From: Williamsia limnetica
Lineage (GTDB): Bacteria; Actinomycetota; Actinomycetes; Mycobacteriales; Mycobacteriaceae
DNA length: 64,000 nt
Assembly: GCF_003217475.1 (NCBI RefSeq)
Contig: NZ_QJSP01000006.1
Span: 235,878-299,877 of the forward strand
Direction of reading: 5' to 3'
Shown: in pieces, positions 7,571 through 51,278 of the stretch
Numbering within the stretch: position 1 is the first letter of the stretch
How the letters are laid out: each line of letters opens with the position of its first letter
Position numbers and translations under genes: made by a program
Notes under the pieces: generated by a model
Seen by the model: the letters and a program-made list of their open reading frames with translations, nothing else
Database searches by the model: none
What the model was told of the DNA's origin: nothing

Positions 7571-7635
7571 CCGATTCTGGTGGCTTTTGGTGACAGCGAC
7601 CTGGTGTTTTACTCGCCAGAAGCCACCAAGATCGG
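7571..7635. repeat. 65-bp palindromic element, copy 1
   Basis: Fills most of the 112 bp between the XPB helicase gene and its upstream partner. The outer 23 bases of each end pair at 19 positions: left arm starts CCGATTCTGGTGG, right arm ends CCACCAAGATCGG. Total length is exactly 65 bp, as in the five other copies listed here. In RNA it would form a long imperfect hairpin with a loop of about 19 nt; it has no U-tract. Termination or processing between the two cotranscribed genes is possible. Confidence 0.75.
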
Positions 7636-7639
7636 GATC

Positions 7640-9943
7640 TCAGTCGACGATCTCGACCGTGGTGATCCGGTGGAGCGAGAAACGGTGCTCCTCTTCGCTG
7701 TCCGGTTCGATCGCGACGAGGAGCCCTGCCCCGATCATCCGGGGCGCGACGATGTGCTTGCTCGCGAAGCCCTGCGCGTTGACGTAGCCGAGCCGGACCG
7801 TGCGGGAGGTGTTGAGTGCGGTCTGCAGCAGTGCCGCTGCGGGCGTTCCGCCCCCGGTGACGGCGGATCCTCCGGCACCGATCCGGGTGGCCACGGCGGC
7901 ATTGGCCGCATCCTGGGACCGCATGTGCGTCACGACGGTCGCGAGGCGTTCGCGGGTCGGGGGTACCAGCGCCGACGTCCGCGGCGTCCGTCGTTCCCTG
8001 GGTGTCGGCAACCGGGCACCCCGAGTACGCAGATCCACCAGTTCACCGGTGGTGTCCTCACCCGCGGGGGCGAATCCCGCTGCCCGGAGAGCTTCGAGGA
8101 CCTCGATCAGCGGATCGGTACTCACCGCGACGGTCGGCGCCAGTGCGCGCAGGGAGAGCTGCTCGGCGACGGGGGAGCGCAGGACCGAGGCCAGGATGGC
8201 CGCGTCTTCGCATCGGATGAACGAGGTGGCGACGCCGACGCGCAGCTGGCCGTGCTTGCGCGCCACATCGTCGATCAGATAGGTGATGGACTGTGGGACC
8301 GGCGTTTTCGAATGTGCGGTGAAGAAGGTGACCAACTCGGTTCCGGTGCGTCCGGCATCGAGTGCGCGCCGGACCGACGACTCGGACACGCGATAGACGG
8401 ACGCGGCGCCACCGGATTCGAGGTCGGCGACCAGGGCGAGGTCGGCGGCGAGTTCGGGGGTCAGCGGCCCGGGTGCGGTGACCGTCTGATCGGCTTGGGC
8501 GAGAAAGAAATCGATGGACGGCGGAATCGACCGCGCCATCGCCGCCACGGTGTGTTTCTCCACCTCGTCGGCCGCGCCTGCGGTTGTCAACTGGCGTCCC
8601 GCCGACGTCAGCGCGCCGTGGGCGACCAGGCCCAGAGCCTGTGCCTCGGCAAGGGTTTCGGTGATCGTCGTGCGGGGCATGCGGCGCACCCACCGCGGGT
8701 GGCGCCAAGCGATGAACCGGGCCACCGACACCGGGGTGACGTCTGCGCCGGCCTTCGCCGCACCGAGGGCCTCCAGGACCAGCAGCCGTTCGGCGCGGGC
8801 CGCACCTTCGGCCATCTCTCCGACCAAGGCACCGATCGGTGTGCCGTCGGGGGTGCGGTCACCGATCTGCCACGGCCGTCGCTGCAGGTTCAGCCATGCC
8901 GATGCGACCGAGAACCAGCGCCGTTCGGCGGCCTGGTGGATCCAGCTGTCCGTCGACGAGGTGGGTGCCCACGACGGTTCGACACCGTCGGAGGTGTCGG
9001 GAACCGGGAATCCGGAGTCGATGAGCCGCAGCTCGGCCAGTGTTTCGAGCACCAGGCCGATACGTTTCTCGTCGACGCCGACGACTTTCGCCAGTCGACG
9101 GATCTCCCGCACGCCCATCCCGCCCGCCCGCAGCACCGCGGCGGGTTGCACTCCGAGGCTGTCGAGGGTGTCGCCGGCATGCCGGAGGAATTCCAGTGCT
9201 TCACCGGCTGCCGCGGCGTCGATCTCGCTCAAGGCGATCTTGCGGCCCCCGGCGCCGGTCAATTCTGGCGGCCGTAGTTCGGCCGGTTCGGAGGGGTCTT
9301 CGCCGCGGATCAGCTGGCCGACCACCACAGGTAACTCCACCGTCTGCTCATCCACGACCACCAGCAGGTCCTGGTGCACCAGTCGCGGCACCGGACGATC
9401 CGTTTCGGGGCCGAGCGCGGCGTCGCGGGTACGTCCGAGCCCCGGTCCCGACGCCAGGGTGCCGAGCAACTCGCGTTCGCGCTCGGGCAGGGCGGCTATC
9501 TTCTCCCGGATCTCCTCCAGGGTCAGCGAGTTGATCGCGGCCGTCGCCAGCCGGGAACGCCAGGGCCACGCGGCGGCCAGGTGCGGCCCGGCGACCAGGG
9601 CCTCGGGGGGTCCCCAGAGCAGGGCGAGGTCGATCAGGGAGTCGATCCGGGCGCCGATGTCCGCCGGTTCGGCGCGGCCGGACAGCGCGTCCACGATGGC
9701 CGCGGTGGATACCGGGGACGGCCCGAGTGCGCTCACCGTCTCGAGTACCGCGACGGCGAGCAGGTCCAGCTCTTCACCGCTGCGGTTGACCGATGCAGCC
9801 GAGAGGGCGCGCTGGGCGAGCACCGCGACCCCGGGCGGTGGTGGACTCGCCAGGTCAGGACGCGACTGCATGAGGTCGAGCAGCTGGTCGTCGTCGCGGC
9901 CCGCGAGGTCGTCGGCCAGACTGGTTGGCGCCTCGGTCTTCAT
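7640..9943 (-). CDS. Helicase-associated (XPB/Ssl2 N-terminal-like) domain protein
   Basis: A 767-residue protein matching the Rv0862c family, annotated as helicase C-terminal domain 3 or 'XPB/Ssl2-like helicase N-terminal domain'. No Walker A motif is visible, so it is not itself an obvious ATPase. It carries winged-helix-like stretches and a WYL-like C-terminus with '[21 protein letters not shown]'-type residues. Conserved pairing with the XPB helicase suggests a partner role in DNA repair (inference). The start is ATG at 9943 (MKTEAPTS); an alternative ATG at 9970 adds nine residues. Upstream codons in the same frame overlap the divergent small gene and are rejected. Confidence 0.8.
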
Positions 9944-9985
9944 CCAGCCGATGATATGCCGCTGGTCCATGGCAGAATGACGCCC

Positions 9986-10165
9986 GTGGCTGAAAAGAAG
10001 AAGTACGTCGACAATGGCTGGCCGGTAGTTCCCGAGGGCGAGCACGCCGTCAGTGAGTTCGCGGCCAACGTGTCCGGCTCGCTGTCGCCGTTCGGTGATG
10101 TGGAGTTCCCGCTCCCTGTCGAGGATCTCCCGTACATCCACCCGAAGACCTCCGTCAATCGCTGA
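9986..10165 (+). CDS. Conserved small protein (Rv0863 family)
   Basis: A 59-residue hydrophilic protein beginning [10 protein letters not shown] and containing '[19 protein letters not shown]'; it has no membrane helix or cysteines. M. tuberculosis has a small protein (Rv0863) at the same place between the helicase-partner gene and moaC. Function is unknown. The GTG at 9986 is preferred because CAGAAT, a possible -10 box, ends 7 nt before it; an in-frame ATG at 9977 would add three residues. It stops 4 nt before moaC starts, so it probably heads the moaC-mog-moaE transcript. Confidence 0.75.
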
Positions 10166-10169
10166 TCCG

Positions 10170-10670
10170 GTGACGTCCTCGCCCGAGGAGGGACGCCTCA
10201 GTCATCTCGACGATGCGGGGGCGGCGCGCATGGTGGACGTGGGCGGAAAACCCACCACCACGCGAAAGGCTGTGGCCACCGGTACCTTTCGGACCACAGC
10301 CGAAGTGATCACGTTGCTGTCCTCCAGCGGGTTGCCCAAGGGTGACGCACTCGCCACAGCCCGGATCGCCGGGATCATGGCGGCCAAGAAGACCCCCGAG
10401 CTCATCCCGCTCTGCCATCAGGTCGCGCTCAGTTCCGTCAGTGTCGAATTCGACCTCGGCGAGCAGTCGATCGGCGTCCGGGCCACGGCTGTGACCACCG
10501 ATCGCACCGGTGTGGAGATGGAAGCGCTGACCGCGGTCGCCGTGACCGGTCTCACTCTCCACGACATGGTCAAAGCCGTCGATCCGCGCGCCTGCATGAC
10601 CGACATCGGGCTGTACGAGAAGACCGGCGGTAAGAAGGGGCACTGGAAACGTGACGGCGACACCCCATAA
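10170..10670 (+). CDS. moaC: Cyclic pyranopterin monophosphate synthase MoaC
   Basis: A 166-residue protein with the MoaC signature: MVDVGGKP near the N-terminus, ELIPLCHQV, VEMEALTAV and the C-terminal DIGLYEKTGGKKG. With MoaA it converts GTP to cyclic pyranopterin monophosphate in molybdenum cofactor synthesis. The start is GTG at 10170, 4 nt after the preceding stop and without other in-frame candidates close to the conserved region. moaC, mog and moaE form one operon (gaps of 15 and -1 nt), the same trio as moaC2-mog-moaE2 in M. tuberculosis. Confidence 0.95.
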   Translation: MTSSPEEGRLSHLDDAGAARMVDVGGKPTTTRKAVATGTFRTTAEVITLLSSSGLPKGDALATARIAGIMAAKKTPELIPLCHQVALSSVSVEFDLGEQSIGVRATAVTTDRTGVEMEALTAVAVTGLTLHDMVKAVDPRACMTDIGLYEKTGGKKGHWKRDGDTP

Positions 10671-10685
10671 GGCCGGAGCCGGGCG

Positions 10686-11162
10686 ATGACCGACCCGAGC
10701 GCAGTGGTGGTGGTGGCCTCGACCCGGGCAGCCGGTGGCGTCTACCCCGACCGCTGCGGCCCGATCATCGCCACCTGGCTGCGCGAACGCGGCTACGCGG
10801 TGGCCGACCCGATCGTCGTCCCCGACGGAGATCCGGTGGGTGACGCCTTACGCGAGGCCATCTCGCAGCAGGCCACCGTCGTGATCACCACGGGTGGCAC
10901 CGGATTGAGTCCCACCGATCGCACCCCCGAGCAGACGGCCGCGGTACTGGACCGGCAGATTCCCGGCCTGGCCGACGCCATCCGCCGCAGTGGGTTGCCG
11001 ACAGTGCCGACCGCAGTGCTCTCGCGCGGCATCGCGGGGACGGTCGGTCGCACACTGGTGGTGAACCTTCCCGGCTCGACCGGCGGTGTGAAAGACGGAC
11101 TGGGCGTACTCGACCCGGTGTTGGCGCACGCCGTAGACCAGATCAACGGAGGCGATCACTGA
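10686..11162 (+). CDS. mog: Molybdopterin adenylyltransferase MogA/MoaB family
   Basis: A 158-residue MoCF-biosynthesis domain protein. Landmarks are the N-terminal strand with [22 protein letters not shown] in the middle (the TGGTG-x-D loop that binds molybdopterin), and [13 protein letters not shown] near the C-terminus. It adenylates molybdopterin before Mo insertion. Its TGA stop shares one base with the ATG of moaE (TGATG), so the two are translationally coupled. MogA and MoaB proteins are hard to separate by sequence alone; the operon context supports the cofactor role either way. Confidence 0.93.
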
Positions 11163-11599
11163 TGTCTGCCGTCGTCGCTTGCGCTGCTGTCACCGAGGAA
11201 CCGCTGTCCACGGCCGTTCATGAGCAACTTGCGGCCGACGCCGCCGGCGGCACAGCGGGGGCGATCGTCAGTTTTGTCGGTGCCGTACGCAATCACGATG
11301 GCGGCCGAGACGTGACCGCGCTGAACTACAGCGCCCACCCCACGGCCGCAGAGGTCGTCGCCAAGGTGGTCGCGGACGTGGCGGCAGGCGCTGACGGAGT
11401 GCGGGCGGTCGCGGTGTCGCATCGGGTGGGTGACCTCTCGATCGGTGACGCCGCGCTCGTGGTCGCCGTCGCAGCCGACCACCGCGCTGCCGCGTTCGCC
11501 ACCTGCGCGCTCCTCGTCGATGAGGTGAAAGCGCAACTGCCCGTGTGGAAGCACCAGATCTTCGCCGATGGTTCCGACGAGTGGGTCGGCTCGGCCTGA
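11162..11599 (+). CDS. moaE: Molybdopterin synthase catalytic subunit MoaE
   Basis: A 145-residue MoaE protein. '[19 protein letters not shown]' is the typical N-terminal loop with the catalytic-site arginine, followed by [21 protein letters not shown], and the C-terminal [13 protein letters not shown] carries the conserved lysines that contact the MoaD tail. It converts cyclic pyranopterin monophosphate to molybdopterin using sulfur carried on MoaD. Its MoaD partner is in this window, on the opposite strand beyond rpfA (13677-13934). Last gene of the moaC-mog-moaE operon. Confidence 0.95.
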
Positions 11600-11656
11600 G
11601 GTTGCTCGCCGCCCCTGGTGATTGAAGATCGAACGGTTGCCCGGTACGGTCCGAGC

Positions 11657-12418
11657 ATGAAAACCAAGGCTGCCCTAACCCGCGCGCTGTCAGCCGCCGT
11701 TCTGCTGGCCACCGCCGGCTCGTTGTCCGTACCTGTCGCGTCGGCCGGTGGCGTCCCGGCAGGGGAGCGCATCGTCGTGCTGGTGCCCGGCCAGCAGGCC
11801 ACGCCCGGGACCACGAGCCGGGACCAATACCGAGACATGGAGTCCGAGCTCACCGGACAGGGGTACACCGTGCATACGGTGGACGTGAAGGGCCTCGACC
11901 TGCCCGCCGACACCCGCGTCATCGAGGCTGCGGTCGCGAAGGCCACCGCCGGCGTCGACGTGGAATCGTTGGCGCTCGTCGGCCACAGTTACGGAGGGCT
12001 CTCCGGCCGCAGCTATCTGAAGACCCGCGGCGGGGCCGACATCGTCGACACCTACATCGCCATCGGGACGCCGCAGTACGGGTCTCCCGGCGGCTGCGTG
12101 CAACTGCCCGGATTCGGCTGGGACGGTTGCCCGGTGACGCCGTTCATCGCCGACCTCGTCGCCGGCGACGACACCCCGGGCGAGGTGGCCTACTACTCGA
12201 TCCGCAGTGACGAGGAGCTGGCCGACGGCCGGCTCGACGGAGGCCAATACCGGCTCACCCCGATTCCAGACCTCGTCCACGAGGTCGAGCCCGCCGATCC
12301 CCGGGTTGTCGCCGCGGTGTCGCATATCCTCGCCGGGGACAGCTCGGCCGAATTCGTCGACGAGGCAGACGGCGACATCACCCTCGAGGAGACGCTCTTT
12401 CCGGCACCCACCGGCTAG
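11657..12418 (+). CDS. Secreted alpha/beta hydrolase (lipase/esterase)
   Basis: A 253-residue protein. A Sec signal peptide covers about 1-30, ending at ASA, and the nucleophile elbow is GHSYGG with S111. The fold order (LVPGQQ strand, GHSYGG, later acids and a His near 'PDLVHEVEP') fits a small alpha/beta hydrolase acting outside the cell; lipase, esterase and thioesterase activities cannot be told apart. TACGGT ends 6 nt before the ATG and there is no Shine-Dalgarno, so a leaderless mRNA is likely. It is not an M. tuberculosis neighbour of moaE2 and may be a lineage-specific insertion. It converges on rpfA across palindrome copy 2. Confidence 0.82.
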   Translation: MKTKAALTRALSAAVLLATAGSLSVPVASAGGVPAGERIVVLVPGQQATPGTTSRDQYRDMESELTGQGYTVHTVDVKGLDLPADTRVIEAAVAKATAGVDVESLALVGHSYGGLSGRSYLKTRGGADIVDTYIAIGTPQYGSPGGCVQLPGFGWDGCPVTPFIADLVAGDDTPGEVAYYSIRSDEELADGRLDGGQYRLTPIPDLVHEVEPADPRVVAAVSHILAGDSSAEFVDEADGDITLEETLFPAPTG

Positions 12419-12420
12419 CT

Positions 12421-12485
12421 CCGATAATGGGTCGTTGTGGCTCGGCCGACCTGGTCTTTTGTCCGCCATAGGGACCCATCATCGG
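12421..12485. repeat. 65-bp palindromic element, copy 2
   Basis: Begins 2 nt after the lipase stop codon, between convergent lipase and rpfA. Ends are CCGATAATGGGTC and GACCCATCATCGG, and 17 of the outer 22 positions pair. Its left arm shares TGGGTCGTTGTGGC with the complement of the right arm of copy 4 (29644-29708). Could act as a bidirectional terminator. Confidence 0.75.
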
Positions 12486-12561
12486 GGGGTGGAGGAGACA
12501 TGGAAAAGGGCCCCGCACGGACAGATGTCGCGTGCGAGGCCCTTCGTCTGGGTCTCCGAGA

Positions 12562-13356
<795 letters not shown>

Positions 13357-13591
13357 TTTGTTGTGTTCTCGGTTCGCGGGACGAGGTTGGGCGCGGCGAG
13401 CCGGGAATATTCAATTGCGTTGCGGTCGATCAGATCAACCGAGTCAGACGGTACGTGTTAATTCGGGTCGACACACATCTTTCAAAGGCGAGGTGTTTGA
13501 CGTGTCGGGAGGCCATTTCGCGTTCATTTCGCATTCGCGCTGCTCATCGCTATGACTGTCGTCCCGTGTCCGTACCGTGACCGTAACGTTA

Positions 13592-13607
13592 TGTGATCAA
13601 GGTCACT
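13592..13607. promoter_or_regulatory. CRP/GlxR-type cAMP receptor binding site upstream of rpfA
   Basis: TGTGA-TCAAGG-TCACT matches the CRP consensus TGTGA-n6-TCACA at 9 of 10 positions. It lies about 236 nt before the riboswitch, between moaD and rpfA. M. tuberculosis rpfA is known to be controlled by the CRP-family regulator Rv3676, so the site is likely functional. No clear -10/-35 pair was identified; the 13357-13591 stretch otherwise shows no gene. Confidence 0.72.
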
Positions 13608-13676
13608 GTGTCATCCGAAGGAATGAGGCGACGTAGAAGGCCGATCTATCCGATCGATGACCGCCCGTACGTGGCG

Positions 13677-13934
13677 TCAGCCGCCCGCGAAGGGCGGCAG
13701 GACGTCCACGGTGTCGCCGTTCGACAGCACGCGAGAGCGGTCCCGGACCGCGATCGACTCATGCAGATATGAGCATCGGTTCAGCACGTTGGCCAACTCT
13801 GGATTCTGTTGACCCAACACATTTTCCAGATCAGCAAGTGTGGCTTTGTCAGTGAGTTTCACCACACTCTGGTCGGTACCCGCAGCAGCTTGCGCCGCGG
13901 CGAAGAAGCGTACGCAGATTTCCACCTCAGCCAC
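13677..13934 (-). CDS. moaD: Molybdopterin synthase sulfur carrier subunit MoaD
   Basis: An 85-residue ubiquitin-like protein ending in PPFAGG, the C-terminal Gly-Gly that is adenylated and thiocarboxylated by MoeB and inserted into MoaE. N-terminal strand VEICVRFFAAAQAAAG is typical. The start overlaps the last 8 nt of moaA, so moaA-moaD are translationally coupled. The partner MoaE is encoded on the other strand at 11162-11599. Confidence 0.93.
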   Translation of the reverse strand: MAEVEICVRFFAAAQAAAGTDQSVVKLTDKATLADLENVLGQQNPELANVLNRCSYLHESIAVRDRSRVLSNGDTVDVLPPFAGG

Positions 13935-15018
13935 CGATCGCCGACATGGGCCGGGAGGGCTGCAAGAAGCCTGGTTCGTTCACGCCATGGCCGGGAAGTT
14001 TGCCCCAGGTGGACTCTCGCCAGCGCAACGCGATTTCTTCGTCTGAAGACGAAGTTGACTTGAGCAAATCGGCCAAATTGGTCTCGTTGGTCGCGAAGAG
14101 GCAATTGCGTAGCTGCCCGTCGGCGGTCAGACGGGTGCGGTCGCAGTCACCGCAGAACGGCCGCGTGACCGACGCGATGACCCCGACGCGCGCCGGTCCG
14201 CCGTCGGCGCCGAGGTACCCGGCGACGGTCCACCTCTGCGCCGGTGCGGCACCCCGAGGTGCCGAATCGGGCTGCAGGTCGAACTCGCGTTGCAGCCGCT
14301 CCAGAATCTGGTCCGCGGTGATCATGGTGGTGCGCGACCAGTGGTGCTCGGCATCGAGGGGCATCTGCTCGATGATGCGGAGCTCATAGCCTCGGTCCAG
14401 GCACATCCGGAGCAACGCGGCGGCGTCGTCGAGGCCGTGCTCGGTGTCGAGCACGGCGTTGACCTTCACCGGTAGCAGGCCGGCGGCCGCCGCGGCGTCC
14501 AGTCCGGCGAGGACGTCGGGGAGTCGGTCACGGCGCGTGATGGCGGCGAATCTGGCCGCGTCGACGGTGTCGAGCGAGACGTTCACCCGGTTCAAGCCGG
14601 CTTCGGCCAAGCGCGCGGCCTGGTGACGCAGACCCAGACCGTTGGTGGTGAGCGCGATCTCGGGGCGTGGGTCGAGGGCGGCCACGGCCTCGATGATCTC
14701 GGGCAGGTCTTTGCGCAGGAGCGGTTCGCCGCCGGTGAAACGAACGGCTTCGACGCCGAGATGACGTACGCCGATCGATACCGCCCTGACGATCTCCGCC
14801 GCGGTCAGCACCTTGTCCCGCGCGAGCCAATCGAGGCCCTCGGCGGGCATGCAATAGGTGCAGCGCAAGTTGCATCGGTCCGTCACCGAGACGCGCAGAT
14901 CACGCACTGCACGCCCGAAGGTGTCGACCATGGGCCCGCTGGTGGGCATGGCGGCGTCGCGCAGAACGGCCTTTTGGGCGGACAGGCCGCTCGGCATGCC
15001 GAGAGCGATGACAGTCAC
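13927..15018 (-). CDS. moaA: GTP 3',8-cyclase MoaA (radical SAM)
   Basis: A 363-residue radical SAM enzyme. The N-terminal cluster motif is C49-x3-C53-x2-C56 in RCNLRCTYCMP, and the second cluster is at PFCGDCDRTRL plus LRNCLF (C-x2-C-x13-C). The C-terminus ends in Gly-Gly (SAIGG), which in MoaA enters the active site. It starts molybdenum cofactor synthesis from GTP with MoaC. GTG at 15018 is preceded by TAGGCT at 7 nt with no ribosome binding site, so probably leaderless. Followed by moaD and then rpfA on the same strand. Confidence 0.95.
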   Translation of the reverse strand: MTVIALGMPSGLSAQKAVLRDAAMPTSGPMVDTFGRAVRDLRVSVTDRCNLRCTYCMPAEGLDWLARDKVLTAAEIVRAVSIGVRHLGVEAVRFTGGEPLLRKDLPEIIEAVAALDPRPEIALTTNGLGLRHQAARLAEAGLNRVNVSLDTVDAARFAAITRRDRLPDVLAGLDAAAAAGLLPVKVNAVLDTEHGLDDAAALLRMCLDRGYELRIIEQMPLDAEHHWSRTTMITADQILERLQREFDLQPDSAPRGAAPAQRWTVAGYLGADGGPARVGVIASVTRPFCGDCDRTRLTADGQLRNCLFATNETNLADLLKSTSSSDEEIALRWRESTWGKLPGHGVNEPGFLQPSRPMSAIGG

Positions 15019-15118
15019 AGGTCCCAGCCTACGGTTCGAGCCTGCGCAGGGTCGGGCCGACGGGGGCGTCGGCCCAGGCGATATCCGCAGATACGAACCC
15101 CTGGACCGTGAAACACCG

Positions 15119-15646
15119 CTACTGCGGAGTCGTTGCCTTTTTGCGCTCCAGGGCGCGGAAGGTGCTGGCGTGGAATACCAGCGGTTCCTGCACCGGGTCG
15201 GCGCGTAGAGCGTTCACCTTGAGCAGCACCAGGCTGTGGTCGCCTGCAGGGATCTCGTTGTAGATGGTGCAGGACAGTTGCGCCACAGCGCCGCCGATGA
15301 ACAGTGCGCCGTCTGCGGTGGTCTCCAGATCCAAACCGGTGAAGCGGCGGTCGGCGGCACCGGCGAGCTGTTTGCACTCGGCGTCCTGGTCGTGGGCGAA
15401 CACCGACACCCCGAGCACCGGTGCGATACGGAGTTTGGGCCACGTGGTCGACTCGTTCTGCACGCACAGAGACACCAGCGGAGGGTCGAGTGAGACCGTC
15501 GCGAACGAGCTGGCGGCCAGGCCGATCGATTGGTCGCCGGCCTGATGGCAGACCGCCACCACACCGGTCGGGAAACAGCTGTAGGCACGCCGCAGGGCCG
15601 ATCCATCGCTGGTCGGGCTCAGGGCTCCGTCGATTGGTGTCGTCAT
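15119..15646 (-). CDS. Flavin reductase-like, FMN-binding oxidoreductase
   Basis: A 175-residue flavin reductase domain protein: LRRAYSCFPTGVVAV at the N-terminus, GLAASSFATVSLDPPLVSLCV with the flavin-binding strand, and a central 'CTIYNEIPAGDHSLVL' carrying the conserved GDH. Members reduce free FMN or FAD with NAD(P)H for a partner monooxygenase or act as stand-alone oxidoreductases. No oxygenase is adjacent; the only candidate partners here are the distant StyA-like and FMO genes (62306-63679, 55519-56643). ATG 15646 is selected because homology begins there; upstream codons read into intergenic DNA. Confidence 0.87.
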   Translation of the reverse strand: MTTPIDGALSPTSDGSALRRAYSCFPTGVVAVCHQAGDQSIGLAASSFATVSLDPPLVSLCVQNESTTWPKLRIAPVLGVSVFAHDQDAECKQLAGAADRRFTGLDLETTADGALFIGGAVAQLSCTIYNEIPAGDHSLVLLKVNALRADPVQEPLVFHASTFRALERKKATTPQ

Positions 15647-15659
15647 GTCACCGTTCAGC

Positions 15660-15905
15660 CTAGTTCGCTGGAGTTCCGGGGTCGGTTCGAGCGGCGTCCG
15701 CGCGCTGCCGTCGGCCTGATCGCAGGGCAAAAATCAGGCCGCACAAAAATCCGAGCGGCGCGCACATCGTCAACAGATAGACGAACAAGGGGGCCGTCTC
15801 ACCCGTGATCGGTGGCGTGAGGAACAGCGCGAACAGTGCGACGAGACCGATCGCGAAGAGGCCCAGTGCCACCCGCAGGAGCAAGCTGCCTTCGGCTTTG
15901 CGCAT
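15660..15905 (-). CDS. Small two-helix membrane protein
   Basis: An 81-residue protein with two hydrophobic helices at about 8-29 and 38-61 and a basic, Arg-rich C-terminus (SGRRQRADAARTDPGTPAN), predicted N-in/C-in. No family recognised; M. tuberculosis has an integral membrane protein gene (Rv0870c) in this place between moaA2 and cspB. TACCGT ends 7 nt before the ATG, suggesting a leaderless transcript. The gap to the flavin reductase start is 13 nt, so the two genes are probably cotranscribed. Confidence 0.72.
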   Translation of the reverse strand: MRKAEGSLLLRVALGLFAIGLVALFALFLTPPITGETAPLFVYLLTMCAPLGFLCGLIFALRSGRRQRADAARTDPGTPAN

Positions 15906-16060
15906 GTGGTCAACGGTAGTGCAGTCCGGCGAGCCCGGGAAAACCCGTGTGCTGCGCGCCGGGGCCAGGGGCTAGACTGGCTCAAACGCGTCTGGCTGGA
16001 CCTACCGTCACAGCGGGCGCTTTCGTTTTGTGTAGACACGAGCAGATGAGGGTGAGCGCA

Positions 16061-16477
16061 GTGCCCAGCGGCAAGGTGAAGTGGTACGACGCGGAGAAGG
16101 GCTTCGGCTTTCTCTCGCAAGATGAGGGCGAAGACGTCTATGTGCGTTCGTCCGCGCTCCCCGATGGCATCGAGGCTCTCAAGCCCGGCCAGAAGGTCGA
16201 GTTCGGGATGGCTGCGGGACGTCGCGGCCCGCAGGCGTTGTCGGTGAAGGTGCTCGATCCTGCCCCGAGCGTCGCGAAGAACACCCGTGAGGCAGCTCGC
16301 AAGGATCAGCCGAAGAAGCACACGACCGACGAACTGCACGGCATGATCGCCGACCTGGTGACGCTGCTCGAAGGCAAGGTGCAGCCGGACCTGCGCAAGG
16401 GACGGTATCCCGATCGCAAGACGGCCCAGATGATCTCCGAGGTCGTTCGGGCCGTCGCCCGCGAGCTGGAGAACTAG
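16061..16477 (+). CDS. cspB: Cold shock domain protein (CspB type) with C-terminal extension
   Basis: A 138-residue protein. The cold shock domain occupies about 1-66 with RNP1-like KGFGFLS and RNP2-like VYVRSSAL, followed by a charged ~70-residue extension ([16 protein letters not shown]...[11 protein letters not shown]) absent from 67-residue Csp proteins but present in Rv0871. It binds RNA or single-stranded DNA in the cytoplasm. GTG 16061 is chosen because [10 protein letters not shown] is the usual N-terminus and a GGTGAG sequence precedes it; in-frame ATG 16046 is an alternative. TAGACT at 15973-15978 would give a leader of about 80 nt, common in cold shock genes. Confidence 0.88.
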
Positions 16478-16487
16478 CCCCGACCTC

Positions 16488-16552
16488 CCGATCTTGGTGG
16501 GTTCTGGCGAGCGTTTCCCCTGGTCACGCGCGCCACAACCCACCATTTTCGG
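16488..16552. repeat. 65-bp palindromic element, copy 3
   Basis: Lies 10 nt after the cspB stop, between convergent cspB and the DUF2771 gene. Arms begin CCGATCTTGGTGGG and end CCCACCATTTTCGG; 21 of 26 outer positions pair, extending into GGCGAGCG/CGCGCGCC. Closest in sequence to copy 5 (32919-32983). Confidence 0.75.
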
Positions 16553-16565
16553 TAGGTCCGGGGGG

Positions 16566-29643: not shown

Positions 29644-29708
29644 CCGATGATGGGTCCTTACGGCGAACAAAACGCCAGGTGAGCGCCGCCACAACGACCC
29701 ATCATCGG
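29644..29708. repeat. 65-bp palindromic element, copy 4
   Basis: Between citA and serC, both on the minus strand: 7 nt after the citA stop and 40 nt before the serC -10 box. Arms are perfect over the first 13 bases (CCGATGATGGGTC) and 19 of 22 overall. The loop half CAGGTGAGC-n-CCGCC is shared with copy 6. This copy is in a tandem, not convergent, junction. Confidence 0.75.
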
Positions 29709-32918: not shown

Positions 32919-32983
32919 CCGATTTTGGTGGGTTCTGGCGGTCGCGACCTGCGGAAATCCTCGTCGGAACCCACCAATTCCGG
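32919..32983. repeat. 65-bp palindromic element, copy 5
   Basis: Starts at the base after the MFS stop and ends 2 nt before the stop of the convergent ABC1-kinase gene, so it is the entire junction. Arms begin CCGATTTTGGTGGG and end CCCACCAATTCCGG; 17 of 23 outer positions pair. Confidence 0.75.
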
Positions 32984-39209: not shown

Positions 39210-39212
39210 ACC

Positions 39213-39629: not shown

Positions 39630-39653
39630 TTGGCGTCGGGATAGATTTGCGGG

Positions 39654-43819: not shown

Positions 43820-43915
43820 GGGCGGTTCGGGTTGGTTCGGTTCCGTTCGGGCCGTTTCGAGGGAGCTGAGCAGGGGTAACAGTCTTCTCATGAGCATTTT
43901 CGGCAGGATGGTGTG

Positions 43916-45265
43916 ATGAGCGAACAACCGATCGTGCTGTGGCTACGCCGAGACCTGCGACTCAGCGATCTACCACCACTGCTGGCAGCCCAAGGACGAC
44001 AGGTGCTGGCGTGTTTTGTACTCGACCCCACGCTCGAGGCGTCATCGGGTGATCGCAGACTGACCTTCCTGTACGACTCGTTGCGCGACATCGAGGATCA
44101 ACTCGACGGTTCGTTGCTGGTCGTGCGCGGCGAGGCGGACAAGGTGATCCCCAAGATTGCGAAGTCGATCGACGCCGGCGCCGTCCACATCAGCGCCGAC
44201 TACTCGCCCTACGGTGTGCGCCGCGACGACAAGGTCCGAAAGGCGCTCGGAGACATCCCTCTCCAGGAGGAAGGCTCCCCGTACGCGGTTGCGCCGGGCC
44301 GAGTCCTCAAGGACGACGGCGAGCGGTACCGGGTGTTCACCCCGTACTTCCGCAAATGGCGCGAGCACGGTTGGCGCGACCCCGCGGACACCGGGGTCAA
44401 CAGCGCGACGTGGATGAAGCCGGGCGATGTCTCAGGGGTCCGTTCCACAGTCATACCGAAATCGAAGGGTGAGTTGGACATCCCCGCAGGCGAGCGGGCG
44501 GCATACGCCCGGTTTGCAGAATTCATGGCGGACGACATCGACGGATACGACGACGACCGGAACCGTCCCGACCACGCGTCGACCAGTCGGATGTCGGCCT
44601 ACCTCAAGTTCGGCAACATCCATCCGAGGGCGCTGCTCGCCGACCTCGAGAACAGCGAAGGCACCGGCCGCGCCGCCTACATCCGTGAGTTGGCGTTCCG
44701 GGACTTCTACGCAGACGTCCTACATCAACGTCCTGACAGTAGTTGGTGGAATCTCAACAAGAAATTCGATGCGATACAACATGATTCGGGCAAGGACGCC
44801 GATGCGGACTTCGACGCCTGGCGCGAAGGCAAGACCGGATTCCCGATCGTCGACGCCGGCATGAGGCAGCTGTCGGAAAGCGGTTTCATGCACAACCGAT
44901 TACGGATGATCGTCGGATCGTTCCTGGTCAAAGATCTACACCTACCGTGGCAGCGGGGCGCCGCCTGGTTCCTCGATCAACTGACCGACGGCGACATGGC
45001 CAACAATCAGCACGGCTGGCAGTGGGTGGCCGGCTGCGGCACCGACGCTGCGCCCTACTTCCGCGTGTTCAACCCGATCACCCAGGGCAAGAAGTTCGAT
45101 CCGTCGGGTGATTACGTGCGGCGCTGGGTGCCAGAACTACGGGAGATCAGCGGCGCCGCTGTCCACGAACCGGGTGACGCGCGACCCGCCGACTACCCCG
45201 AACCGATCGTCGACCACAAAACCGAGCGACAGGTCGCGCTGGATCGCTACCAGAGTCTCGCCTGA
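43916..45265 (+). CDS. phrB: Deoxyribodipyrimidine photolyase
   Basis: A 449-residue class I CPD photolyase/cryptochrome. The N-terminal antenna domain begins IVLWLRRDLRLSD; the FAD domain carries TSRMSAYLKFGNIHPR, ELAFRDFYADVL, GKTGFPIVDAGMRQL and WQWVAGCGTDAAPYFRVFNP, with the tryptophans expected for electron transfer. It repairs UV pyrimidine dimers using light. ATG 43916 is used; a GTG directly before it is an alternative. The 96 bp upstream has no strong signal except CAGGAT 6 nt before the ATG. Confidence 0.94.
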   Translation: MSEQPIVLWLRRDLRLSDLPPLLAAQGRQVLACFVLDPTLEASSGDRRLTFLYDSLRDIEDQLDGSLLVVRGEADKVIPKIAKSIDAGAVHISADYSPYGVRRDDKVRKALGDIPLQEEGSPYAVAPGRVLKDDGERYRVFTPYFRKWREHGWRDPADTGVNSATWMKPGDVSGVRSTVIPKSKGELDIPAGERAAYARFAEFMADDIDGYDDDRNRPDHASTSRMSAYLKFGNIHPRALLADLENSEGTGRAAYIRELAFRDFYADVLHQRPDSSWWNLNKKFDAIQHDSGKDADADFDAWREGKTGFPIVDAGMRQLSESGFMHNRLRMIVGSFLVKDLHLPWQRGAAWFLDQLTDGDMANNQHGWQWVAGCGTDAAPYFRVFNPITQGKKFDPSGDYVRRWVPELREISGAAVHEPGDARPADYPEPIVDHKTERQVALDRYQSLA

Positions 45266-45302
45266 CGGGCACACACGGCGGCGCTGTCGGCACGGTCGGT
45301 CA

Positions 45303-46052
45303 CTAGCGCGCTTTCCACTCCGGCGGGCGTTTCTCGAAGAACGCATTGATCCCTTCGCGCATGTCGTCGGACGCCAGAATTTTCTCCTGGGCCCGCCCAG
45401 TCGCCTCCCAACCTGTGGCGTCGGCTGCTGCGTACTGCTCGTTCAGCGCAGCCAGGGTCGCCCGCACCGCAACGGGTCCGGATGCGTTGATGTCCTCGGC
45501 GAGCAGCTGGGCGTCGGCCAGTGCCTGTCCCGGTTCGCTGACGACGTTCACCAGACCCAGATCGTAGGCCCGCTGCGCGGTCAGCCCGGCGCCGGTGATG
45601 AGTAGTTGGCGCGCGATGTTGGGCGGCAGCGCGCGAGTGACCCGGAACAAGGCGCCGGAGGTGGCGACCAGCCCACGCCGGGTCTCGGGCAGCGCCATCC
45701 GCGCTGCCGTGGACGCGACGATGAGGTCGCAGGCCAGCGCGATCTCCAGACCGCCACCCATGCAGGGACCCTCGACCGCCGCGATCAGCGGTTTGATCCG
45801 CTGACGCCGGATGATGCCGTACTCGCCGCCGCGATCGGTGCGAGCCCCTGCGCCGTCCTTCAGGTCCGTGCCCGCGCAGAACACCTTCGGCGTGCCGGTG
45901 ATGACCCCGGCCCACAGCGTGTCGTCGTCATCGAGTCGGTCGAGGGCCGCGGAGATCCCCAGTGCCATCTCCACATTGATGGCGTTGCGCTTGTCCTCCC
46001 GGTCCAGGTGGACGATCAGCGTGCGACCCCGGACTTCTTCACGAATCGGCAT
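45303..46052 (-). CDS. Enoyl-CoA hydratase/isomerase (crotonase) family protein
   Basis: A 249-residue crotonase. Oxyanion-hole segments are VFCAGTDLKDG and GPCMGGGLEIALACDL. Of the two catalytic glutamates of classical hydratases, the first is present (LPETRRGL) while the second position appears to be Gln in ARQLLITG, so dehydration/hydration may be slow or replaced by another CoA-thioester reaction. TACGTT ends 6 nt before the ATG, suggesting a leaderless transcript. It is downstream and codirectional with the ABC importer, whose last gene starts 97 nt upstream on the opposite edge. Confidence 0.85.
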   Translation of the reverse strand: MPIREEVRGRTLIVHLDREDKRNAINVEMALGISAALDRLDDDDTLWAGVITGTPKVFCAGTDLKDGAGARTDRGGEYGIIRRQRIKPLIAAVEGPCMGGGLEIALACDLIVASTAARMALPETRRGLVATSGALFRVTRALPPNIARQLLITGAGLTAQRAYDLGLVNVVSEPGQALADAQLLAEDINASGPVAVRATLAALNEQYAAADATGWEATGRAQEKILASDDMREGINAFFEKRPPEWKAR

Positions 46053-46090
46053 CCATGAAACGTAGCAAGCACCCGCTGGACGGCCCCGTG

Positions 46091-47149
46091 TCAGATGGGC
46101 TTCTTGAGATCCGGATTCTCGGCGTAGACCTCCTGGATCAGCGACATGTCGAAGAGTTGCTCCGCGGCGATCTCGTAGCCGGCCTTGGCCAGTGCTTCGA
46201 TGTTGAGGTCGATCAACGCGGGGGTCATGGTCAGCAGACCGTTGGCCTTGCTGTCGTCGTTGACGACCAACAGGTTCTGGGCCTCGGCCTCTTTGGTCTG
46301 CTCACCGAGCTCGAGCCCGAGATCCTTGCCGTACTTGGTGACGGCCAGCTCGGCGGACTTCGCCGGATCGGCCACTGCGTCGTACCAGCCCTGGATGTCG
46401 GCCTTGAGGAACGCCTTGAGCTTGTCGCGTTCGTTGTCGATCGTCTCCTGCCGGACCACAAGGGTCTCGGCGACGAGGGGCAGGTTGAAATCGGCGAACA
46501 GGAAGTTGGCGTTCGGGAACCCGCCTTCGGCGAGCGTGATCGGCTCGTTCGTCACGTACGAGACCCAGCCGTCGACCTCGCCGGTGGTCAGCGGCGTCGG
46601 GTCGTACTGGACGGTGATCTTCTGAACGTCCGAATCGACCATTCCGTTGGCCGTCAACAGCGCCTTGAAGACGTTCTCGTTCGACGCCTGGACCCCGATC
46701 TTCTTGCCTCTCATATCCTGTGGCGAGAGGATCGGGCTCTGCGCACCGGAGACGATGCAGAACGGATTCTTCTGGAACGTCGCGGCGATCGTCTTGAGGG
46801 CCGCGCCCTGCAGGATGACGGGGGCGGTGAGTTGCGGCGCGGTCATACCGATCCACACCTTGTTGGACGTCAGGCCGGTTTCGACGCCGGTGCCCGGGCC
46901 GCCGCCGGTGATGAGTTCAGGGGTACCGAGCCCCGCCGCCTCGTAGTACCCGTTCTCGATGGCGAAGTATTCGCCTGCGAATTCGATGTTCTTCTGCCAC
47001 GACAGCTGCACCTTGGGGTTGGTGGCGCTGCCACCACCGCTGTCGCTGCTGCCGGAGCTACAGGCGGCGAGAACACTCGCGCTGCCCACGGCGCCGCCGG
47101 CGATCATCGAATACCGAAGGAACGACCGGCGGTCGAACGTATAGGCCAT
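46091..47149 (-). CDS. ABC transporter substrate-binding lipoprotein, NMT1/THI5-like
   Basis: A 352-residue solute-binding protein. The N-terminus has a twin-arginine motif DRRSFLRY (R7, R8) and a lipobox ending at C30 (VLAAC), so it is probably a Tat-exported lipoprotein. The mature part begins with 'SWQKNIEFAGEYFAIENGYYE', the signature of the NMT1/THI5/SsuA group that binds pyrimidines, thiamine precursors, sulfonates or similar. ATG 47149 has GGAG 7 nt upstream. A 118 bp gap with small hairpins separates it from the permease gene, which would allow higher expression of the binding protein. Confidence 0.88.
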   Translation of the reverse strand: MAYTFDRRSFLRYSMIAGGAVGSASVLAACSSGSSDSGGGSATNPKVQLSWQKNIEFAGEYFAIENGYYEAAGLGTPELITGGGPGTGVETGLTSNKVWIGMTAPQLTAPVILQGAALKTIAATFQKNPFCIVSGAQSPILSPQDMRGKKIGVQASNENVFKALLTANGMVDSDVQKITVQYDPTPLTTGEVDGWVSYVTNEPITLAEGGFPNANFLFADFNLPLVAETLVVRQETIDNERDKLKAFLKADIQGWYDAVADPAKSAELAVTKYGKDLGLELGEQTKEAEAQNLLVVNDDSKANGLLTMTPALIDLNIEALAKAGYEIAAEQLFDMSLIQEVYAENPDLKKPI

Positions 47150-47267
47150 CTGAGGACTCCTTGTGTTGAGCGTGCTTCGCACGACGGTAGGGCGGCCTGG
47201 TTTCGGCCAGATTTCGCGCGCGGATTGCTTTGTTACGTAATCGGGTTCGCCACCGAGCGGGCCGTGA

Positions 47268-48137
47268 TCAGGTGGGTTTGGTGCCCATCTGGGCCAGGAC
47301 GAGCTTTTCCGCGACTCCGACGAAGGCGTAGAGCACGATCGAAGCGACCGTGATGACCAGCACCGAGGCCCAGAGTTCGTTGTAGGCGGCTGCAGGCAGG
47401 GCCTGCTGCAACGTGGCGCCCAGACCAGTGTTGGTGCCTAGCCACTCGGCGACAGTTGCGCCGATCATGGCGCCGGGTACGGATACTTTGGCCGCGGCGA
47501 ACAGCGCCGGCACCGCCGAGGGCAGCGACGCCATCCGCATCGAGGTCATCCGGGTGCCGCCGTAGGCGACGATGACGTCGTTGATCTGCTTGGGTGCGTT
47601 GGCGAGTCCGGTCATGATCATCACCAGGGCAGGGAAGAACACGACGATGCCGCCCATGACGGCGACCACCGCGACCCCGCGGCCGACCACCAGTGTGATC
47701 AGGGGCGTCATCGCGACCAGCGGAACCGAACGGAGCAACATGGCGATGGGCATGAATGTCTGTGCGACAGGCCGGAACATCACGAACAGTGCCGCCGCGA
47801 TGATGGCGGCGCCCATCCCGCACACAAAACCTATTCCCGCGTCTTTCAACGTGATCCAAAGGTTGTCCAGGATTTCGCTGCGGTTTGTCGCCGACGCCGG
47901 CTCGGTGAACAGATAGTGGAAGACGTCGATCGGGGTCTTGCCGATGATGGGGCCGATGTCGGGAAAGGCCAGCAGGAACAGCCACCAGATCACCAGGATC
48001 AGGAAGAACGAGATGATCAGGGAGCCGATGAACTTCGCGATCTCCCAGGAGATCGCCTTCGCGTTGCCCGAGTTGGCCTGCGCGGCAGCGGCGGCGGGGA
48101 CCGGTGCCGACGGCGGTGCCTTGGTGGTGGCGGTCAT
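47268..48137 (-). CDS. ABC importer permease (SsuC/ThiX type)
   Basis: A 289-residue permease: an Ala/Pro-rich cytoplasmic N-terminus of about 30 residues, then six hydrophobic helices. The EAA loop is at 'VAYGGTRMTSMRMASLPSAVPALFAAAK' (positions about 183-210), which contacts the ATPase. ATG 48137 overlaps the upstream permease stop by 4 nt. With the second permease it would form a heterodimeric channel. Confidence 0.88.
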   Translation of the reverse strand: MTATTKAPPSAPVPAAAAAQANSGNAKAISWEIAKFIGSLIISFFLILVIWWLFLLAFPDIGPIIGKTPIDVFHYLFTEPASATNRSEILDNLWITLKDAGIGFVCGMGAAIIAAALFVMFRPVAQTFMPIAMLLRSVPLVAMTPLITLVVGRGVAVVAVMGGIVVFFPALVMIMTGLANAPKQINDVIVAYGGTRMTSMRMASLPSAVPALFAAAKVSVPGAMIGATVAEWLGTNTGLGATLQQALPAAAYNELWASVLVITVASIVLYAFVGVAEKLVLAQMGTKPT

Positions 48138-48943
48138 TTGCTGCCTGCCATTCCGGTGCTGTAACGGGTGACGTAGGTCGAGATCACCGCGACGATCGCG
48201 TACCCCACACCGGCGACGGCGCCGGCGACGAGCGCGATGGCCCACACCGCCGGGATGTCGCCGCGCTGCTGGGCAACGATGAGTGCCGGTCCTGCCCCGC
48301 GTTCGGGCATGGCCAGGAACTCACCGAGCACCGCGCCGAGGACGGCTGCCGGGGCGGCGATCTTCAGGGCGGCAAAGGTACTGGGCAGGGCGGAGACAAC
48401 CCGGACCCGGACGAGCTGGGCGATGGTCCCGCCGCCGTACACCTTCACCAGGTCGAGGCTGGCCTGGTGCGGTGACCGAAGACCGGCGAGGGTGCCGATC
48501 ATCGTGGTGAAGAAGACGGAGATGGCAGCCAGGAAGATGATCATCGTCTGGACTTCGGCGAAGGCGACCTGGACGATCGGGGCGACCGCGATGATCGGGG
48601 TGCAGTAGCTGATGATCGCGAGCTGGGTCGCGACCCCCTCGATCAGCGGGATGATGACCACCATCAGGGCGAGCCCGATGGCGAGCACGTTGCCCCACAT
48701 GAACCCACGGAGCGACAGTTCGATGGTCGGGCCGAAGTTGTTGGCGTAGTAGGTCCATCCCTGGTCACCGATGGTCTGCAGTACGGCCCAGGGGGTAGGG
48801 ATGGTGCCCTTGAACCATTCGAAGTGCCCGGCGACGGACCAGAGCAGCAGGACCACGATGATGCCGGTCGCGCCGGCGCCCCAGCGTTTGCCGGCCTGCT
48901 GGGCACGACCGGTGAAAGGCGTTGTGGCTGCGAGGGTGCTCAC
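48134..48943 (-). CDS. ABC importer permease (SsuC/ThiX type), second subunit
   Basis: A 269-residue BPD_transp_1 permease with six helices and the EAA loop near [21 protein letters not shown]. Paralogue of the adjacent permease. Overlaps the ATPase stop and the next permease start by 4 nt each, so the three genes are translationally chained. Confidence 0.88.
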
Positions 48944-49791
48944 GCCACCCCCGCCGTTCCCTTGCTGCCGAAGAGCAGTCCGCTGAGGTGATCGTGCAGT
49001 GCATGGAACTCGGGGGTGCGCATCATCTCGGGCACCCGTGGCCGAGGCAGGTCGATGTCCACCATCTCGAGGATGGTGCCCGGCCGCGGACTCATCACCG
49101 CGACCACGTCCGAGAGGAATACGGCCTCACCGATGCCGTGGGTGACCATCAACGTGGTCGCAGGCTTCTCTGTCCAGATCCTGAGTAGTTCGATGTTGAG
49201 GCGTTGGCGGGTCATGTCGTCGAGTGCGCCGAACGGTTCGTCGAGCAGCAAGGCGGTCGGCTTCACCACGAGCGCTCTAGCGATCGAGACCCGTTGGCGC
49301 ATACCGCCGGACAAGGTCGCGGGTTTGGCCTTCTCGAAACCCTTGAGACCCACGAGCTCGATCAGATCCGCGATCGCGGTCTTGTCGATCGGGAGGCCCG
49401 CGACCTGCAGGGGGAGTTTGATGTTCGACTCCACGCTGCGCCAGGGCAACAACGCCGAGTCCTGGAACGCGATACCGAGGCCGTGTTGTGATTGCAGCTC
49501 TCTGGGGGAGCGCCCGTTCATCAGCGCGGTACCCGCCGTCGACTCCTCGAGCCCGGCGAGGATCCGCAGCACCGTCGACTTGCCGCAGCCAGAGGGTCCG
49601 AGCAGTGACAGGAAGGCACCTTCGGAAGTTTGCAGGTCGACGTCGTGCAGCGCGGTCACGGACGAACCACCGCGCAGGCCCGCGGACTTGAATTCCTTGG
49701 TCAGCCCGGAGATGTTGATCCCGGTGCCGAGCGGGCGCGCGGTCTTGACGGTGGCGACCGGATCGGTGTCCGGGATGTCGGTGGAGCTCAT
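48940..49791 (-). CDS. ABC importer ATP-binding protein (SsuB/TauB type)
   Basis: A 283-residue ATPase: Walker [11 protein letters not shown]-loop [12 protein letters not shown], signature [15 protein letters not shown], Walker [13 protein letters not shown] and switch H in VTHGIGEAV. The Q-loop and 'FGALDDMTR' are typical of the nitrate/sulfonate/taurine family. It heads the four-gene importer operon (ATPase, permease, permease, binding protein). TAGCGT lies 8 nt before the ATG, and a GlnR-like box is centred about 43 nt upstream of the start. Confidence 0.92.
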
Positions 49792-49826
49792 ATTCCGCGA
49801 CGCTAGGCGGCGCTGGTTTCTTGCGC

Positions 49827-49842
49827 GTTACGCACGCGTTAC
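49827..49842 (-). promoter_or_regulatory. GlnR-like nitrogen control box upstream of ABC importer
   Basis: On the minus strand GTAAC-GCGTGC-GTAAC, two direct GTAAC half-sites with a 6-bp spacer (AC-n9-AC), as in GlnR boxes of streptomycetes and mycobacteria. Centred about 43 bp upstream of the ATPase start, where a TAGCGT -10 lies 8 nt before the ATG, a good place for an activator. The same 121 bp also holds the promoter of the divergent glycosyltransferase. Confidence 0.55.
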
Positions 49843-49912
49843 TGCCCTCGTACCCAATCCCCAGGTGATCATCGATTCGGCAGCAACGGTTTTCGGTGAC
49901 TATCGTGCGGGC

Positions 49913-51205
49913 ATGCAGATTGTGCTGATGTTCTACGGGAGCCGCGGCGATATCCAGCCCGGCATCGCAGCGGGCCTTGAATTGCAGAGACGTGGCCACG
50001 ACGTCGCGATCGCCGTCCCGCCGAACTTCGTCGACTTCGCCACCGGCCTGGGGCTCCGGGCCTACCCGGTCGGTCTCGACACCTCATCGGTCTGGGACAC
50101 CCCGAATGCGAAGAAGGTACTCGCGACGAAGAACCCGTACACCAAGTTCACGCTCGCGTCCGAGACGATCAAGGCCGGGTTCGCCGCGTTCGACGCGGAC
50201 ATGATCGCGCTGCTCTGCGGACCCGACCCGGTGTTGTCGGGAGTCGACGCGCTCGTCAGCGGTCCGCTGTGTCAGGAGCGTGTGTACGGCTTCGCCGAGA
50301 AACTGGGCATCGCGTTCTCGGTCATGAGATTTGGTCCGTTCTCGGAGAACGGGATCATCGGAGCGATTCCGGGGGTGACCCGAGACCTGCCTCCGCGGGT
50401 CAATCGGGCGTCGTGGCGGGTGTCGGATGCGCTGACCTGGACGTTCACCAGGGGAGCCGAGAACACCTTCCGGAGCAAGCTAGACCTCGAACCTGCGTCC
50501 GGGTCGCTGCAAGAGCGACTCACTCGCGACGGCGCGGTCCAGGTGCAGGCCTACGACCCAATCCTGTTCCCGGGGCTTGCCGAGGAATGGGGTGAGGCGA
50601 AACCGATCGTCGGCTACCTCGACCTCCCCGCCGCGGCGCGCGGCGGCCTCACCGAATCGTCCCGGTCCGACCCGGCGTTGTGGTCGTGGCTGACCGAGGG
50701 GGACCCGCCGGTGCACATCACGTTCGGCAGCGTGCCGGTGCGCGACCCCGTCGCATTGACCGACGTGATCGTCCGCGCCGCGCGGTCGGTGGGGGTCCGC
50801 ACCCTGATCACGATGAAGGGCAGGTCCGACGGCCCCGACCCGGCGCACCCCGACGTCTATTTCGCGCGCGCACTCGATCACGCCGCCGTGTTGCCCCACT
50901 GCCGGGCGATCGTCCACCACGGGGGAGCGGGCACCACCGCCGCCGGTCTGCGCGCCGGACTACCCACGATGGTCTGCTCCGGCGGCGCCGACCAGGCCTA
51001 CTGGGGCGCCCAGGTGACGCGACTGAAGGTCGGTACCGCCACTCGGCTCAAGGGCCTCGACGAGGCCACGCTGACCGCCGGTCTCCGAGAGATCCTGACT
51101 CCGGAGGCGGGTGAGCACGCGCGGTTGTTGGCGCAGCACCTCATCGCCCCGGACGTGGCGGTGTCGCGGGCGGTGGACATCCTCGAGAGGTCCGCGGCCG
51201 CCTGA
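49913..51205 (+). CDS. GT1-family glycosyltransferase
   Basis: A 430-residue GT-B enzyme. N-terminus VLMFYGSRGDIQPGIAAGLELQ is the acceptor-domain hallmark; the donor-site motif is LPHCRAIVHHGGAGTTAAGLRAG with HHGGAGT. It resembles sterol and antibiotic UDP-glucosyltransferases and the glycopeptidolipid rhamnosyltransferases of mycobacteria. Acceptor unknown. TATCGT ends 6 nt before the ATG, so possibly leaderless. Longer frames upstream run antisense through the ATPase gene and are rejected. Confidence 0.88.
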   Translation: MQIVLMFYGSRGDIQPGIAAGLELQRRGHDVAIAVPPNFVDFATGLGLRAYPVGLDTSSVWDTPNAKKVLATKNPYTKFTLASETIKAGFAAFDADMIALLCGPDPVLSGVDALVSGPLCQERVYGFAEKLGIAFSVMRFGPFSENGIIGAIPGVTRDLPPRVNRASWRVSDALTWTFTRGAENTFRSKLDLEPASGSLQERLTRDGAVQVQAYDPILFPGLAEEWGEAKPIVGYLDLPAAARGGLTESSRSDPALWSWLTEGDPPVHITFGSVPVRDPVALTDVIVRAARSVGVRTLITMKGRSDGPDPAHPDVYFARALDHAAVLPHCRAIVHHGGAGTTAAGLRAGLPTMVCSGGADQAYWGAQVTRLKVGTATRLKGLDEATLTAGLREILTPEAGEHARLLAQHLIAPDVAVSRAVDILERSAAA

Positions 51206-51213
51206 CGCACAAT

Positions 51214-51278
51214 CCGAAATTGGGGCCTTTTGGCGAGCAAACCCGCAGGTGAGCTCCGCCAAAAGGCCCCATTTCCGG
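51214..51278. repeat. 65-bp palindromic element, copy 6
   Basis: Between convergent glycosyltransferase and ABC-2 permease genes, 8 nt and 11 nt from their stops. It has the best stem of the set: 20 of 22 outer positions pair, including GGGGCCTTTTGGCG on the left. The loop half AGGTGAGC-n-CCGCC is shared with copy 4. Confidence 0.78.

Follow-up and report, generated by a model that had tools for sequence, protein, structure and literature searches.

The closest parallels to the arrangement described here are the REP/RAYT systems, in which, according to excerpts of PMC2817692 and PMC3733652, many short extragenic palindromes lie mainly at convergent or tandem gene junctions and the enzyme gene stands between two copies. 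We analyzed six 65-bp intergenic palindromes in a 64,000-nucleotide stretch of Williamsia limnetica (NZ_QJSP01000006.1, positions 235,878 to 299,877; “the window” is this whole stretch), together with the family to which they belong. As in REP/RAYT systems, the Williamsia palindromes are located at gene ends, and a gene, here one encoding a DUF559 protein, stands between two copies in all nine Williamsia genomes. In contrast, the Williamsia enzyme is AbiEi-DUF559/Vsr-like and no Y1 domain occurs in the genome, while the DUF559-linked palindromes are 65–66 bp long, carry no GTAG/CGTC tag and have arms that are private to each nuclease lineage.

Three further systems share a component with this locus. 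The predicted Williamsia protein has the Vsr/EDxHD nuclease fold of homing endonucleases such as I-Bth0305I; unlike these, its cassette is free-standing, intergenic and framed by palindromes, lies outside any intron or intein, and is accompanied by about 100 gene-less copies. Its N-terminal part resembles AbiEi of the AbiE toxin-antitoxin systems, but in Williamsia this part is fused to a nuclease domain. Caulobacter VsrA is a DUF559 nuclease that has been called Vsr-like (PMC12907096); a search of that paper for “palindrom” gave 0 occurrences and so no mention of a palindrome family. Our literature search, from which subscription papers and preprints fell outside, found no paper tying DUF559 or Vsr-like nucleases to dispersed palindromes. 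REP/RAYT systems already have the framing architecture. New here are the class of enzyme, a palindrome private to each lineage, and the bounded exchange described below. We think it likely, on balance, that the six palindromes belong to a two-part element, as dispersed copies that lack the gene, and that the nuclease-bearing form of this element lies elsewhere in the genome.

A palindrome family and its nuclease-bearing form

The initial annotation had put forward a defined family whose members have a fixed length and compensating arm changes, and further copies were indeed found. A degenerate pattern with a spacer free by 10 bases had 41 genomic matches, each 65 bp long (0 for the reversed control pattern), and a covariance model built from 44 copies (R1) recovered at least 98 distinct places, which is a lower bound: 90 of exactly 65 bp, six of 64 and two of 63. 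With the same model the family was detected in 9/9 Williamsia genomes, at 67 to at least 150 strand-matches each. An element consists of 22–23 paired positions and a centre of 19 bases, in which an asymmetric motif, GACCTG..TTT, is conserved. In the alignment of 44 copies the CCGA end pairs with the TCGG end, the free arm sequence falls into a few types (TGGTGGG, TGGGTCG, TGGGGCC and others), and the predicted minimum free energy of the copies folded is about −32 to −45 kcal/mol. In a scan of exact TGGTGGGTTCTGG arms for single arms resembling uptake sequences, 16 of 30 had no exact inverted partner within 75 bp (imperfect partners were unscored).

Pairing was assessed with 46 sequences from two genera. 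Paired cells made up 89.6% of the total (69.8% in shuffles) and 216 cells were changed on both sides (72 in shuffles); neither value was reached by any of 500 shuffles, and both also exceeded all slid versions. Two of the five pairing measures, the pairs with double change and the number of pair types, were not above shuffles in the same sequences.

The gene-bearing form, palindrome - nuclease gene - palindrome, occurs once per genome in all nine Williamsia genomes. In W. limnetica the gene encodes 292 amino acids and is located outside the window (G000:C2:273900-274778; L065:15467-16342), between two elements 983 bp apart. In the other eight Williamsia genomes, and also in G191, G238, G382, G409 and G360, a pair of elements encloses a homolog. 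Every Williamsia genome encodes a single ortholog (E 2.6e-105 or better) alongside weaker homologs, the next best at 3.1e-28; by coordinates, none of the other 11 homologs of W. limnetica is within 2 kb of a listed element, and none is encoded in the window. In the Tsukamurella-genus genome G382, two elements still frame a nuclease gene (L185:1502-2442) that is apparently frameshifted, so that framing can outlast the gene.

The framed protein belongs to DUF559 (PF04480; 35 bits against a cut-off of 20.6, with three relatives at 21.6, 22.0 and 25.5). Its predicted structure (13 sequences; mean pLDDT 87.8, pTM 0.82) would combine, among the matches listed, an AbiEi-like first part with a Vsr / I-Bth0305I-like nuclease domain. 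The N-terminal half matched an AbiEi antitoxin structure, and PADLOC AbiEi models gave a weak match (1.7e-5). The residues S-W-E-T, D, E-Y-D-G and H-R are invariant in 13/13 sequences, a set that we read as typical of a PD-(D/E)XK site.

The identity of this protein bears on two readings borrowed from known mobile elements. One is that the palindromes are REP/RAYT or IS200/IS605 derivatives moved by a Y1 tyrosine transposase: their location, copy number, freedom of inverted orientation and framed enzyme gene match the REP/RAYT descriptions in the excerpts of PMC2817692 and PMC3733652. The framed gene, however, encodes a DUF559 protein, Y1_Tnp (PF01797) had 0 matches in the genome while 5/14 control genomes were positive, and the elements are 65 bp rather than 20–40 and have no unpaired GTAG or CGTC end. 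This reading is already contradicted for the W. limnetica genome, and we give it almost no chance. The second, that the copies are MITEs or the ends of an ordinary DDE transposon, is scarcely more probable. It would suit palindromic, dispersed and intergenic sequences, but the framed gene is not a DDE transposase and 95 copies showed no flanking direct repeats of at least 3 bp (0 observed against 0.9 expected for k = 3), that is, no target duplication. A non-autonomous palindromic element was the better of the two guesses in the initial annotation, although not in the strict REP sense, given the lack of a Y1 domain and of target duplication.

The alleles of the nuclease gene show how gene and palindromes travel. 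Two allele groups occur in Williamsia, one in W. limnetica, G250, G251 and G256 and the other in G249 and G252–G255, and they cut across species. Over the syntenic stretch W. limnetica is 87% identical to G252–G255 and 76–77% to the others; G253 is 94–96% identical to G250, G251 and G256, yet carries an allele of the other group. (G253 clusters with Williamsia; its public record is labelled Kitasatospora arboriphila.) The arms of the flanking palindromes match the allele group in 17 of 18 flanking copies, that is, in all readable cases. Between G253 and G250, which are 95.7% identical over 80 kb, the entire palindrome-nuclease-palindrome cassette has been swapped: identity is 91–99% up to the left palindrome, 43–80% inside and 99% after it. 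The edges of the switch fall close to the palindromes, to within about 15 bp (left) and 55 bp (right), and the next solo element, 1.2 kb further, is replaced on its own. The same picture was obtained for W. limnetica and G252. That palindromes and nuclease form a single unit is supported most strongly by this bounded exchange.

Location at gene ends and turnover at orthologous sites

To place the copies relative to genes we called genes with a simple finder, trained on the window, and used 95 of the 98 copies (three weak ones were left out). Convergent junctions hold 56 copies and tandem junctions 31; five overlap a called gene, two are divergent and one is at a contig end. Both stops lie within 18 bp in 50 of the 56 convergent copies, a nearness that is partly forced because gaps between convergent genes are short where no element is present (median 25 bp). 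Tandem copies start at most 13 bp from the upstream stop in 29 of 31 cases, and the next start is a median of 51 bp away. Among junctions of 40 bp or more in syntenic DNA, an element is present in 28/78 convergent, 35/307 tandem and 2/163 divergent ones (p = 1.4e-6 and 1.3e-8). Some gene ends extend 7 bp into an element, for example at C12:26037 and C9:266306, so that the element provides the stop codon.

This location is what one would expect of bidirectional gene-end hairpins, terminators or protectors of mRNA 3' ends, that are maintained by selection; the nuclease would have borrowed two of them and the gene would be unrelated to their spread. The enrichment at convergent junctions, the retention of pairing while sequence drifts and the occupation of some sites in 9/9 species are all consistent with such hairpins, and a stable hairpin placed right after a stop, as in nearly all tandem copies, resembles an intrinsic terminator. 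Several observations speak against it. There is no T/U-rich tract in the flanks of the 95 copies, with a T run on neither side; the asymmetric centre is indifferent to transcription (co-directional in 12/31 tandem copies, p = 0.28); G-T wobbles are not favoured in the transcribed direction of tandem copies (25 G-T, 35 A-C); and a hairpin is missing from most convergent junctions that lack an element (mean z −0.46, 37 of 136 sampled). Moreover, neither the private palindrome pair of each nuclease lineage nor the joint travel of allele and arm type would be explained. We regard gene-end hairpins as an unlikely account of the family as a whole. For the RNA hairpin that the initial annotation offered as its other guess, the location fits and the centre orientation ignores transcription; a terminator or 3'-end role is possible.

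A different role for the AbiEi-like part was also considered. AbiEi antitoxins bind inverted repeats, and given the AbiEi-like N-terminal fold the palindromes might be operator sites through which the protein represses or marks genes, with the nuclease domain at work elsewhere in repair or defence. The copies lie behind genes and not in promoters, however, with only 2/95 at divergent junctions, and the nuclease residues are conserved in 13/13 sequences. Operator sites are in our view very unlikely.

Two other candidates were rejected. For a strand-specific function as single-stranded nucleic acid, the inner stem was suggestive: consensus folding gave −32.9 on the GACCTG strand against −20.9 on the other, and inner-stem wobbles were one-sided (65 G-T, 11 A-C). 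The outer stem, however, is symmetric (46 G-T, 46 A-C), and we therefore do not take the strand-biased folding and the inner wobbles as proof of RNA. In an integron attC-like reading, the conserved GTT/AAC pair would face the other way compared with the attC consensus.

We compared 13 sites of W. limnetica with eight Williamsia relatives, using one genome per species. Three close species were occupied at 13, 10 and 11 of the 13 sites, and four sites were occupied in all nine genomes, two of these being the nuclease flanks. Orthologous copies differ in arm type and in centre orientation. Some of the compensating changes described in the initial annotation reflect the replacement of one entire arm type by another at a site and not compensation base by base; the defined family, its fixed length and its compensating arms stand. 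Which sites are occupied and which are empty, the contrast that the initial annotation had proposed to examine, varies among relatives.

All six palindromes of the window are present where the initial annotation had placed them, every one of 65 bp, and gene calls agree with its four convergent and two tandem contexts (Table 1). Its CCGA...TCGG ends hold for most copies, copies 5 and 6 ending in CCGG, and its left-arm pattern TT-N-TGG fails in copy 4, which reads TTACGG there.

Table 1. The six 65-bp palindromes of the window, in window positions; the strand is that of the GACCTG centre.
Copy	Position	Strand	Junction	Stop codons	Same site in other Williamsia genomes
1	7571..7635	+	tandem	4 bp from stop of gene 7640-9970(-)	occupied in G252, G254 and G255
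2	12421..12485	+	convergent	2 bp past a stop	present in G255, absent from G252 and G254
3	16488..16552	-	convergent	stops at 10 and 13 bp	without element in G252
4	29644..29708	-	tandem	stop at 7 bp	occupied in 9/9 genomes, arm type swapped and centre flipped in several: TGGTGGG-type and + in G250, G251 and G253-G256; other types and - in W. limnetica, G249 and G252
5	32919..32983	+	convergent	stops at 0 and 2 bp	different copy in opposite orientation in G252; deletion remnant in G254
6	51214..51278	-	convergent	stops at 8 and 11 bp	almost the same sequence inverted in place in G254

An Rfam scan of the window at gathering score gave no match to the palindromes; its only match was a c-di-AMP riboswitch (RF00379, 65.2 bits) at 13177-13366 (-). 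With one 65-bp copy as query, plasmid and phage collections gave no match at E 0.1, and a pattern search of named genomes, a set from which near relatives are possibly absent, found 0 stretches. Outside the palindrome family, about 70 bp at L065:9800-9870 with a short repeated motif are found in W. limnetica and are missing from the aligned relatives.

Private palindromes of other DUF559 nucleases

Copies of the family in a second genus, Tsukamurella (g6; G191 is Tsukamurella sp. M9C), have wholly different arms (TTGAACGACGTT and others) that are nevertheless paired. Their centre is the same as in Williamsia, and they are mostly 65 bp long and adjoin stops. With strict filters, a model of both genera (R2) matched in 26/401 genomes of the bacterial family, in 4/31 genera. 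DUF559 homologs (E 1e-40 or better) are far more widespread, in 184/401 genomes and 22/31 genera.

A similar palindrome was found on both sides of the DUF559 gene at 36/82 loci, compared to 0/403 control genes (38 loci at a laxer threshold, 28 at a stricter one). For this count 83 loci were taken, of which 82 were testable; orthologs were counted separately, and two loci are in twice, one passing (L263 = L303) and one failing (L265 = L304). In a named set of 80 loci, which overlaps the first, 28 of the 75 testable ones passed, compared to 1/181 mixed flanks. The labels of the passing named loci are mostly Mycobacteriales genera; one is labelled Acidobacteriaceae and is probably G426, in g6. 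Every nuclease lineage has its own palindrome.

Within W. limnetica, further DUF559 genes (L266, L267, L269, L271 and L273) are each framed by an unrelated palindrome pair of their own. Two of these other families are dispersed in the genus, the L267 type at three further places and the L273 type at six, several of them orthologous. At a convergent junction of G255 (L108:9290-9362), a near-perfect palindrome about 70 bp long belongs to the L267 family. Four Williamsia paralogs (L228, L230, L231 and L235) carry clusters of similar palindromes, two to three to a side, around the DUF559 gene, reminiscent of BIME-like arrays.

For mycobacteria we built a model (R3) from six palindromes of three loci. 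It matched in 24/25 genomes of g2, which we take to be Mycobacterium (1–56 strand-matches), with single weak matches in 2/11 others. On five named loci outside its training it recognized the palindromes on both sides in three and on one side in two. The 20 top R3 copies in three g2 genomes comprised 8 convergent, 9 tandem, 1 divergent and 2 overlapping copies. In their 2011 RNIE study, Gardner et al. reportedly described TRIT, a conserved structured motif at M. tuberculosis gene ends. TRIT is possibly the mycobacterial counterpart of the Williamsia palindromes. The TRIT motif of M. tuberculosis is also named in PMC3526491.

Proposed mechanism and implications

In the two-part element that we favor, the AbiEi-like N-terminal part probably recognizes the palindrome and the DUF559/Vsr-like PD-(D/E)XK domain probably cuts or nicks it, perhaps in an extruded or single-stranded form. 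Another copy would serve as the template for mending the break, and as in homing this repair would cause cassettes and solo palindromes to be swapped, inverted and occasionally added as units. Copies would persist where they are least harmful or somewhat useful, behind stops and chiefly between convergent genes, where the hairpin may also contribute to terminating or protecting transcripts.

Several points weigh against this interpretation. Binding, cleavage, movement, break repair and transcript effects are all steps that we infer, and ordinary recombination with a donor strain could account for the cassette exchange. The related nucleases of the 184 genomes mostly occur without the Williamsia palindrome family, itself confined to 26 of the 401, and 46/82 DUF559 loci failed the paired-palindrome test; some of these are cut by contig ends and others may truly be without palindromes. 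In the comparison of one genome per species, no empty site proved to be recent, and the flanks of empty sites had diverged. Finally, sites occupied in 9/9 species also fit selection for a gene-end function.

Beyond Williamsia, we see about an even chance for a joint reading in which such two-part elements form a class that is widespread among the Mycobacteriales and has no relation to RAYT or DDE systems. A nuclease of the AbiEi-Vsr type would be framed by its own 65–66-bp palindrome, which it would recognize and copy, and each lineage would evolve a private “address”. The element would seed gene ends with gene-less copies, some of them becoming conserved 3'-end structures, and the class may be the origin of the mycobacterial gene-end motif.

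If the two-part element is real, the large and unexplained family of DUF559 proteins with an AbiEi-like part, with related genes (E 1e-40 or better) in 184/401 genomes, would gain a function as the cognate enzymes of dispersed palindromes, in a second independent invention of the REP/RAYT arrangement. Each genome would offer about 100 natural sites for testing nuclease-driven exchange, and the specificity code between nuclease and palindrome would be readable from the comparison of alleles. Mycobacterial 3' ends are poorly accounted for by classical terminators, and elements of this kind would provide a possible origin of structured gene-end motifs in mycobacteria.

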